Positions 1-2,067 of a stretch of 64,000 bases of DNA are shown here, in pieces. The position numbers and the translations under genes are program-made. Every line of letters starts with the position of its first letter. Positions within the stretch are counted from its first letter, which is position 1. The stretch is from Burkholderiales bacterium (GTDB taxonomy: Bacteria; Pseudomonadota; Gammaproteobacteria; Burkholderiales; SG8-41), in contig JAIETP010000025.1 in assembly GCA_019744975.1 (NCBI GenBank), positions 62,001 through 126,000 of the forward strand, in the 5' to 3' direction. The notes beneath the pieces were generated by a model, which did no database searches, was not told the DNA's origin, and was given only the letters and a program-made list of their open reading frames with translations.

Positions 1-1
1 C

Positions 2-244
2 AAACGGGTGGTTTCCCTGCTGGGCTCAACCATGAGTTTGCCGACATCGCGCGACATTGATCGTCGACTGGTCGGCGGCAGTCTGCTGTTCGGCATCGGT
101 TGGGGTATTGCCGGGTTCTGTCCGGGTCCGGGGCTGGTCGCGCTGGGCATGGGCGAGCTGAAGGCGCTGGTGTTTGTCGCGGCGATGCTGGTGGGCATGG
201 GGATATGGGAATTATTTGAAACCCGGGCGAGGGCCGCGAAATGA
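2..244 (+). CDS. YeeE/YedE-family membrane protein, C-terminal part
   Basis: The window opens inside this gene, so only about its last 80 codons can be read. They hold two hydrophobic segments and the stretch GWGIAGFCPGPGLVALG, the glycine- and Cys-rich hallmark of YeeE/YedE (DUF6691-like) inner-membrane proteins. Family members are linked to uptake of thiosulfate or other sulfur species, and one branch has been proposed to handle selenium. The gene ends 174 bases before a selenoprotein-like gene on the same strand. A link between the two is tempting but is only inference from position. Confidence 0.8.
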   Translation, partial: KRVVSLLGSTMSLPTSRDIDRRLVGGSLLFGIGWGIAGFCPGPGLVALGMGELKALVFVAAMLVGMGIWELFETRARAAK

Positions 245-418
245 GCAATCTCTGCGTGATGTCTTTGTGCCAAACGGTTCACCGACGCAAGCCCAATTAG
301 TGGATGGCGGGCTGCTGGTGTTGCCGCATTGCGACGCCCATGGGCATGCGCTAAAGTCCGGACGCCCTCCGCGCGTTTTTCGAGGACGGAGGCGCTTAAA
401 TCGTTCGCAGGAGTCCAC

Positions 419-958
419 ATGAATCAGAAAGTCCGTCTGGTCGTTCCGGAAGCACCGTCGCCGCAGACTGTCGCGGTCACCGAGACCCGCGCTGTCGCCA
501 AAGGCGGCATCCGCCTCGGCGTGCTCGACAACAGCAAGGGCAATGCCGACCACCTGTTGCGTTTCATCGTCGATGGCGTCAAGGCGCTGTTGCCGGTCGC
601 CTCGGTGGTGTCGCTGCGCAAGGACAGCGTCAGCCTGCCGGCGCCAGATGCCATCCTTGATCAACTCGCCGCGGAATCGGATTACGTCATCACCGCAATG
701 GCCGATTGAGGGTCGTGCACGTCGTGGAGTGTCCACGACATGGCAAACCTCAGCAAACGCGGTCTGACGACCGCGGTGATCTGTTCCGGCCCCTTCATGA
801 AACTGGGGCAGGCGCAGGCGCGCGTATTCGGCGTGCCCGATCTTCCGCTGCTGCTGATCCCGCATCCGCTGGGTGGTGTGAGCATCGAACAGGTGCAGGC
901 GCGCGCTGAAGTCGCGGTGCCGCAGTTCGTGAAATTGCTGAAGGAGAAAGCGCAATGA
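419..958 (+). CDS. UGSC-family selenoprotein, in-frame TGA read as selenocysteine
   Basis: Reading from ATG 419 (AGGAG eight bases upstream) gives one continuous protein of 179 residues if the TGA at 707-709 is decoded. The upstream half ends ITAMAD and the downstream half resumes GSCTSWSVHD, so residue 97 forms a U-G-S-C motif. This matches the UGSC family, known from selenoprotein surveys, in which Cys homologues carry CGSC. Both halves are needed for the family fold: LGVLDNSKGNADHLLR lies before the TGA and LPLLLIPHPLGG after it. A perfect hairpin begins 11 bases after the TGA. The stop overlaps the next start as ATGA. The biochemical role of the family is unknown to me. A conventional gene finder would split this gene or call it broken. 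Confidence 0.85.
721..739 (+). promoter_or_regulatory. candidate bacterial SECIS hairpin
   Basis: GTCGTGG pairs perfectly with CCACGAC around the five-base loop AGTGT. The stem starts 11 bases after the in-frame TGA. E. coli fdhF has its SelB-binding upper stem-loop at about the same distance, with G and U in the loop as here. The hairpin lies inside the coding sequence, as bacterial SECIS elements do. Confidence 0.75.
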
Positions 959-2067
959 GCAAGCTTGCGCAGTTGCTGCAGGCGTCGGGCGCGAGCGTTG
1001 AAGCCGAGGATGATTTTGATGCGATCAATGCGCTGATGCGGGAGAAGGGCTGGAGCGACGGCCTGCCGATCGTGCCGCCGACGGAAGCCCGCGTTGCGGC
1101 GATGCTGGAATATTGTGACCGGCCCTGGGATCAGCCGATCGCGAAAATTCCGCCGCGCTGGGGCGAGGCGACGCCTTTGCTGCTCGCTGCCAATGCGGTA
1201 ATGGCGGGCTGCCAGCCGCGTTATTTTCCGCTGTTCATGCTGGCCATTGAGGCGATGTGCGAGGAACCGCTGAACCTCTACGGCGTGCAGGCGACGACGC
1301 ACTTGTGTGCACCGCTGGTCATCGTCAACGGTCCGGTTGCGAAAGAGCTGGACATCAACTCCGGCCACAACGCATTCGGGCCGGGGCATCAGGCCAACGC
1401 CACCATCGGCCGCGCGATCCGCCTGGCGCTGGTCAACATCGGCGGTGCGATTCCGGCGCTGGGCGACATGTCGACCTTTGGTTCACCGGCCAAGTACAGT
1501 TACCTGGTCGCCGAGAATGAAGCGGAAAGTCCGTGGGAGCCGCTGCATGTCGAGCGCGGTTTGCCGATTGATGCGAGTGCGGTGACGGTGATCGGCGCCG
1601 AATGTCCGCACAACGTCAACGATCATGAAAGCCTGACCGCCGAGAGCGTGCTGAAAACGATCGCCGGCACCATGGGTATTGCCGGGGTCAACGATATTTA
1701 TTACCAGTCGCAGCCGTTGGTGATCATGGGGCCGGAACACGCAAAAATGGCGGCCTCGGGTTTTACCAAAGCCGCGGCCAAACGCTTCATCCAGCAGCGT
1801 GCCCATGTCGCGGTCGGCAAACTCTCGCAGGAAAACATCGATCGCCGCGTCAAGATCACCTTCAAGGACCGGCTGGCCAATCCCAAACCGGATGATGTGG
1901 TCTACGCGGTGCAGCGCCCCGAGGATCTGCTGATCGCGGTGATCGGCGGGGCGGGTAAACATTCCGCCTACGTGCCGACCTTCGGCGCGACCAAACCGGT
2001 GACCCGCGCGCTGAAAACCGCGGACGGCAAACTGGCCAAATCGGTGGAGGATTTCCGGCGGCGGTGA
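955..2067 (+). CDS. conserved protein coupled to the UGSC selenoprotein, function unknown
   Basis: This 370-residue soluble protein starts within the stop codon of the selenoprotein gene (ATGA), so the two are translationally coupled. There is no signal peptide or membrane segment. Near residue 33 it has WSDGLPIVPPTEAR, which I have the impression recurs in partners of UGSC-type proteins. It has several scattered cysteines (for example in EYCDRP, AGCQPR and GAECPHN) and a glycine-rich central part (AFGPGHQANATIGRAI). I do not recognise a characterised enzyme. The operon arrangement suggests that it works with the selenoprotein, possibly as a second subunit, but this is inference. Confidence 0.85.
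   Translation: MSKLAQLLQASGASVEAEDDFDAINALMREKGWSDGLPIVPPTEARVAAMLEYCDRPWDQPIAKIPPRWGEATPLLLAANAVMAGCQPRYFPLFMLAIEAMCEEPLNLYGVQATTHLCAPLVIVNGPVAKELDINSGHNAFGPGHQANATIGRAIRLALVNIGGAIPALGDMSTFGSPAKYSYLVAENEAESPWEPLHVERGLPIDASAVTVIGAECPHNVNDHESLTAESVLKTIAGTMGIAGVNDIYYQSQPLVIMGPEHAKMAASGFTKAAAKRFIQQRAHVAVGKLSQENIDRRVKITFKDRLANPKPDDVVYAVQRPEDLLIAVIGGAGKHSAYVPTFGATKPVTRALKTADGKLAKSVEDFRRR

Follow-up and report, generated by a model that had tools for sequence, protein, structure and literature searches.

A UGSC-family selenoprotein gene and its coupled partner in a Burkholderiales bacterium: a probable distant relative of the PrdB and GrdB reductase subunits

The classical glycine reductase operon includes trxB and trxA, and PrdB of D-proline reductase works with a pyruvoyl subunit, PrdA. 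A second group of selenoproteins, the UGSC family, was on record by 2008 at the latest (PMC2398784). The passages of that Global Ocean Sampling (GOS) paper which deal with the family count 255 Sec forms, from 37 GOS samples, and 21 Cys forms, rank UGSC as a major selenoprotein of the GOS data and among the commonest in natural waters, name a conserved domain fused to it Unknown_1, and suggest a Trx-like fold and a thiol oxidoreductase role. The corresponding passage of a 2026 review places UGSC among Prx/Trx/Grx-like proteins without a specific function (PMC13188914). The literature passages found on UGSC give no function; nor, within the literature searched, do they state a kinship to GrdB or PrdB or mention a pile-up of copies in single genomes.

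The gene described here lies at the start of the window, that is, the whole 64,000-nucleotide stretch of Burkholderiales DNA that was analysed. It shares with the UGSC family of the GOS passages a near full-length match and Sec in the UGSC motif, and differs from the forms with a fused Unknown_1 domain in having a separate, ATGA-coupled partner and nine TGA-containing copies in the genome. Since Pfam and NCBIfam already curate this known family, the selenoprotein itself is no discovery; what is added here is the functional side, namely the partner linkage, the kinship to GrdB/PrdB and the thioredoxin reductase neighbours. The features of the locus are:

409..413, + strand: likely ribosome-binding site AGGAG of the UGSC gene, read from the sequence, 5 bases 5' of the ATG
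419..958, + strand: UGSC-family selenoprotein gene, 179 aa, Sec97, assigned from profile matches and from orthologues that share the TGA codon at this site
707..709, + strand: in-frame TGA read as selenocysteine (UGSC motif)
721..739, + strand: SECIS hairpin GTCGTGG-AGTGT-CCACGAC
955..958, + strand: ATGA overlap, UGSC stop and partner start
955..2067, + strand: partner gene, 370 aa, its translation coupled to that of UGSC through ATGA

With the TGA read as Sec, positions 419–955 specify 179 aa with U97 in the sequence MADUGSCTSWSVHD, and the stop codon (TGA 956–958) overlaps the partner's ATG at 955. The protein carries the U/C-G-S-C motif and exceeds the curated cut-offs of both family models: Pfam UGSC [PF24696] matches residues 8–175 with 153.6 bits against a cut-off of 25, and NCBIfam [NF041046] residues 31–174 with 126.1 bits against 125. 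The original prediction had placed the in-frame TGA exactly at the family's Sec/Cys position with family sequence continuing on both sides; the PF24696 match bears out the former and the Sec-read translation displays the latter. It had also expected automatic annotation to miss or split the gene. ORF calling without recoding indeed returns two pieces, 329–709 and 740–958, and the same split occurs in Paracoccus ferrooxidans plasmid CP038202.1, where a Sec-type UGSC gene (L197 5899–6468) is annotated as two hypothetical proteins flanking the TGA. A selB gene lies approximately 4.4 kb from that split gene.

The predicted perfect 7-bp stem, GTCGTGG (721–727) with CCACGAC (733–739), begins 11 bases after the TGA and closes an AGUGU loop; alternatively, if A728 pairs with U732, it becomes an 8-bp stem with a GUG triloop. 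A G early in the loop is the rule for bacterial SECIS elements, as in bSECISearch, and the window gene has such a G in a hairpin soon after its TGA. For this gene alone an equally good hairpin arose in 3.3% of 5000 synonymous recodings drawn with the genome's codon usage. We applied a hairpin rule (five or more non-GU pairs, a G at loop position 1 or 2, 12–25 bases after the TGA) to the 38 Sec and 24 Cys sequences that were kept once identical hairpins and unrecognised contexts had been removed. All 38 Sec-type genes passed against 7 of the 24 Cys-type genes, and after synonymous recoding a mean of 7.2 of 38 passed; the 38 are not independent, many being close relatives and most falling in one paralogue group. 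Folding energy, taken over the 50 bases that follow the codon, did not separate the groups (means of -15.9 for Sec, -15.5 for Cys and -14.2 for recoded sequences).

Two further observations bear upon the hairpin as an RNA structure. In 11 distinct hairpin windows, a set made without the genome's own copies L051–L053 (whose hairpin lies in another register) and without L084 and L197, the shared register gave 96.6% standard pair cells against 17–49% when the partner strand was slid by 1–3 bases, and one stem pair is exchanged on both sides, being G-C in five and C-G in six. Furthermore, the window copy and 29 relatives of 67–95% identity use one and the same codon at each of positions +3 to +10 after the TGA in 239 of 240 cases; leaving aside Trp, which has a single codon and says nothing, the figure is 209 of 210. 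The sole change, CAC to CAT, keeps a G-U pair, and neighbouring invariant residues outside the hairpin (Met aside) use two to five codons. Judged from these comparisons the hairpin is under selection as RNA, which leaves very little room to doubt that the TGA is decoded as Sec.

The four genes proposed as a check, those for tRNA-Sec, SelA, SelB and SelD, are all present in the same genome (3.69 Mb, 44 contigs, 99.28% complete). The tRNA-Sec lies at C3:251198 (75.9 bits, above the cut-off) and SelB at C3:245922 (423.9 bits), with SelA (579 bits) directly upstream of selB in the same cluster; SelD, at C20:48172–49098 (420 bits), has an in-frame TGA of its own. This genome carries nine UGSC genes, and 9 of the 9 have a single in-frame TGA within the match, as does every match listed for 100 relatives. 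Sixty-three of these relatives have the family. A selB gene (E up to 1e-60) was found in 58 of the 63, one of them (G036) being a fragment below the curated cut-off, against 9 of the 37 UGSC-negative genomes (Fisher P 3e-12, kinship ignored). The five UGSC-positive genomes without selB are drafts, 72–91% complete.

Based upon the family match, the hairpin, the Sec machinery, the nine TGA copies and the frozen codons, we are nearly certain that 419–958 is a real selenoprotein gene, whose TGA would be decoded as Sec97 by SelB and tRNA-Sec with the 721–739 hairpin as their guide. That the codon at 707–709 is instead a genuine stop, or arose by sequencing error or pseudogene mutation, is scarcely credible. 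Nothing was found in its favor besides the TGA itself, and it is opposed by the TGA in all own copies and in every match listed among the 100 relatives, by the presence of the Sec machinery and by the selection on the hairpin; sequence error and pseudogene are rejected on the nine TGA copies together with the frozen hairpin codons.

Cysteine had been predicted at the aligned site in homologues. In the alignment A2, 29 of 31 family members have Cys and two have TGA at the Sec position; since most A2 members were fetched by a pattern requiring CGSC, this shows that Cys forms exist and says nothing of their frequency. The prediction thus holds for those 29, but fails for two proteins with Met. 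These are UGSC-partner fusions of Sporomusa termitida (L202 4344–6068) and Vibrio europaeus (L203 4374–6059), which have M-G-T-S in place of U/C-G-S-C and lie near genes for aconitase X and DUF126 proteins. They may have a different activity.

Of 398 genomes sampled across the phylum 5 have UGSC, the bacterium's own included; another of the five (G241) has a form without TGA. In this bacterium's own family UGSC occurs in 60 of 60 sampled genomes, with 1 to at least 31 matches in each.

With regard to more distant relatives, the NCBIfam glycine-reductase B model matched 16 of 31 UGSC members (best E 3e-4) and the PrdB model 13 of 31 (best E 0.0019), both at a limit of E 1. With another alignment and a limit of E 10 the glycine model matched 4 of 10 members (1.7e-4) and PrdB 3 of 10 (5.4e-4). 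Matches to the sarcosine and betaine reductase B models are also found and are weak; like those to GrdB itself they cover the Sec region, and UGSC scores far below the curated cut-offs of these models (TIGR01917, NF040794, NF040795). The window protein's own GrdB match has an E value of 0.02. Unrelated models match as well, the most frequent being CheD (6 of 31 members, best E 0.016), and AhpD matched one of 10 members (E 0.013). Pfam GRDB [PF07355] matched none of 10 members at a limit of E 10, with filters that drop most matches above about 0.1, which indicates that the kinship of UGSC to GrdB is distant.

In profile alignment against three classical PrdB sequences UGSC gave a probability of 87% (P 3.9e-6), and against 29 GRDB-superfamily sequences 81% (P 1.2e-5); the homology covers the Sec region, and the active-site residues fall into register, UGSC lying on UGTC in two PrdB proteins and on CGTC in the third. 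An earlier alignment to GRDB relatives lacking classical PrdB, and leaving out two of the 20 PrdB-like loci (L119, L122), had given 44%. When 116 single proteins (113 of at least 150 aa from the loci of this genome plus the three PrdB) were ranked against UGSC, one half of a UGSC-partner fusion came first and the three PrdB took ranks 2–4; below them stood a partner homologue (6%, P 0.006) and then unrelated proteins. PrdB (TIGR04483) differs from UGSC in its length of about 240 aa and its extra N-terminal part.

The predicted UGSC structure (pLDDT 88.7) has five strands alternating with five helices, with Sec just before the third helix. Its best PDB fold matches are flavodiiron proteins (TM approximately 0.48), the Foldseek matches are weak, and the predicted fold weakly resembles flavodoxin-like and Rossmann-like domains; PDB sequence searches yielded no match judged real (best E 0.43, 0.56, 1.4 and 0.05). 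Thioredoxin is absent from the best 50 PDB fold matches, as are thioredoxin models from the profile matches of the family. The Trx fold is therefore unsupported by the predicted topology, and the alternation of strands and helices counts against the published guess. Probably, Sec97 in U-G-S-C sits at the start of a helix in a flavodoxin/Rossmann-like domain distantly related to PrdB and GrdB, the PrdB motif being U-G-T-C.

The same genome encodes a further selenoprotein of the GRDB superfamily, which is PrdB-like (C3:211341–212042; L063, L106), larger than UGSC, and has the motif UPNCTC. It adjoins an AhpD-like protein with an in-frame TGA (CHYU), and was matched in 27 of 61 genomes, this one included.

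The partner is an almost constant companion. A homologue adjoins UGSC in 31 of 31 loci from a CGSC-pattern scan of named genomes, which took in alpha- and betaproteobacteria, actinobacteria, haloarchaea, Myxococcales, Binatia and others. Among 30 orthologue loci, taken with some 1.5 kb of flank and counting the one in the window, 29 have it, and so do 27 of 30 loci of relatives, the exceptions being L016, L021 and L035. The coupling to a conserved partner that the original prediction read from the ATGA at 955–958 is thus confirmed. Eight of the nine UGSC copies in this genome have the partner, the ninth running into a contig end, and the copies on C14 and at C25:35033 are single-frame UGSC-partner fusions. 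The gene orders observed are U-P, P-U, P-P-U and P-U-P. In Haladaptatus (L206) a partner homologue was seen with no recognisable UGSC gene within 5 kb. There is strong support, then, for UGSC and partner forming a two-component enzyme. On the haloarchaeal plasmids L196, L199 and L207 the UGSC gene lies between two hypothetical genes of partner size; both flanking genes are partner-like in L207, and the L196 and L199 records hold two partner matches each, which suggests a two-partner complex in haloarchaea.

The partner itself resembles little else. Its predicted structure (pLDDT 86.1) has no good match among solved folds, the best being a weak one to fumarate hydratase (E 0.02, probability 0.35), and the window's partner matches no Pfam or NCBIfam family at E 0.001. 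A weak MTTB profile match in 7 of 34 partner members (best E 0.006) and weak fumarase or cyclic-amide-hydrolase fold matches were not accepted as identities. All 34 aligned members share one cysteine, C86 in VMAGC, which is absent from the C14 fusion and from a Neorhizobium protein. The partner is probably the Unknown_1 domain named in the UGSC passages of PMC2398784. A PrdA-like partner was rejected for want of similarity (hhalign probability 0.1% against one PrdA), which leaves a pyruvoyl mechanism without support. Because PF07355 gave no match and the partner is unlike PrdA we do not file UGSC in the GrdB/PrdB group; it resembles their subunit in its motif and, probably, in its source of electrons. 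The annotated plasmid loci that were viewed show no gene named GrdA, GrdC or GrdE next to UGSC.

A source of electrons is suggested by the neighbors. Nine of 37 Cys-type loci have TrxB-like genes in the flanks retrieved, the other 28 have none nearby, and 222 kb of control DNA contains none; among the nine, L132 and L133 had supplied queries, L068 and L134 are one record, and L072 and L073 repeat the case of L071, these three being Bordetella species. Seven of these nine proteins were scanned, of which five lie above the TrxB cut-off and L095 and L135 below it. In Arthrobacter sp. ERGS1:01, a Cys-type locus, the genes run trxB-trxA-partner-UGSC, and trxA overlaps the partner by 4 bases; in Roseovarius trxB adjoins UGSC, and in Haloterrigena the order is U-P-TrxB-like. 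The bacterium's own genome has a TrxB-like gene 14 bases after selB, the product of which lies below the TrxB cut-off. A gene of this kind follows selB in 23 of 23 UGSC-positive against 0 of 7 UGSC-negative relatives, a comparison confounded by kinship in that all 23 come from one family, and for one of the seven negatives (L179) only about 0.4 kb after selB was available.

The wider surroundings point to catabolism of small organic acids. CaiB/BaiF CoA transferases were found in 16 of 37 Cys-type loci (19 genes in 452 kb, compared with 3 in the 222-kb control), LysR regulators in 14 of 37 (17 genes in 452 kb against none in 222 kb), acyl-CoA dehydrogenases in 6 of 37 and PEP-mutase/isocitrate-lyase-type enzymes in 5 of 37, and TRAP transporters lie near UGSC in Roseovarius and haloarchaea. 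TctC transport proteins, in 15 of the 37 loci, show no higher density than the control DNA (25 in 452 kb against 12 in 222 kb), and solute-binding proteins of the TctC/Bug type number 150 or more in this genome, roughly one every 25 kb; we therefore give them no weight. TctC is the immediate neighbor in 5 of the nine own pairs (chance estimate 8e-4, assuming 3500 genes).

Upstream of the window copy (window 1–244 and beyond; L055 10063–12244) lie genes for an ArsR-type regulator, recognised by eye, a persulfide-dioxygenase-like MBL protein and two YeeE/YedE-like proteins. This transport and regulatory company would suit a role of the window copy in sulfur or selenium handling, which we hold to be very unlikely; the link was rejected since a YedE-like gene is conserved near only 3 of 30 orthologue loci, as against 29 of 30 for the partner.

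On balance, we lean towards UGSC and its partner being a thioredoxin-coupled reductive-cleavage enzyme of carboxylate catabolism; for the reductive chemistry and the electron route themselves we would claim even odds. The near-obligate partner (955–2067) would form the reductase with UGSC and probably bind the substrate. The selenolate would attack a substrate carbon beside an activated carbonyl and displace the leaving group, Cys100 would resolve the intermediate to give a selenenyl-sulfide, and an NADPH-thioredoxin reductase, with or without thioredoxin, would restore the enzyme. Genomes may vary the pair for different small carboxylates or their CoA esters. One own copy, at C27:40985–41326 (L052) and cut by the contig end, speaks against a reductase, its motif being UGSS with no resolving Cys.

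The Sec-x-x-Cys motif and the TrxB and TrxA neighbors would also suit an oxidoreductase of general thiol-disulfide or peroxide type with a thioredoxin-like fold, the partner being an auxiliary or target, and this is where the passage of the 2026 review would group the family (PMC13188914). We consider it unlikely, since the predicted topology and the searches of folds and family profiles brought up no thioredoxin, and the near-obligate partner, the many paralogues and the catabolic neighbors better fit a substrate-specific enzyme. The pair might otherwise be a lyase, dehydratase or transferase, in which Sec or Cys acts as nucleophile or metal ligand with no net redox change. Such chemistry would accommodate the Met of the Sporomusa and Vibrio fusions near aconitase X genes and the fumarate hydratase match, however weak, of the partner. 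It is rather improbable given the thioredoxin reductase linkage, the C-x-x-C motif in 7 of 9 plasmid homologues (six CGSC and one CSTC, the two others being MGTS) and UGSC in two Paracoccus records; moreover, a preference for Sec would be hard to explain without redox cycling. The alignment A2, mostly fetched through CGSC, is unusable for judging the retention of C-x-x-C.

Should the thioredoxin-coupled reductase be the right reading, one might go further, tentatively and with more doubt than conviction, and see in the pair a minimal, two-protein, thioredoxin-driven class of the glycine/proline reductase superfamily outside the classical amino-acid-fermenting clostridia. It would be spread over bacteria and haloarchaea and would have radiated within one bacterial family, so that a single genome may hold up to 31 or more Sec-dependent paralogues, with every paralogue taking a different substituent off an imported carboxylate or off the CoA ester of one. 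If true, one selenoenzyme would have radiated over an unusually large range of substrates. The split gene models seen here and in Paracoccus suggest that the UGSC family is undercounted in public annotation. The link to GrdB/PrdB, together with a defined partner and thioredoxin reductase, gives UGSC a testable chemistry, and the Cys-type trxB-trxA-partner-UGSC genes of Arthrobacter permit assays without Sec insertion.
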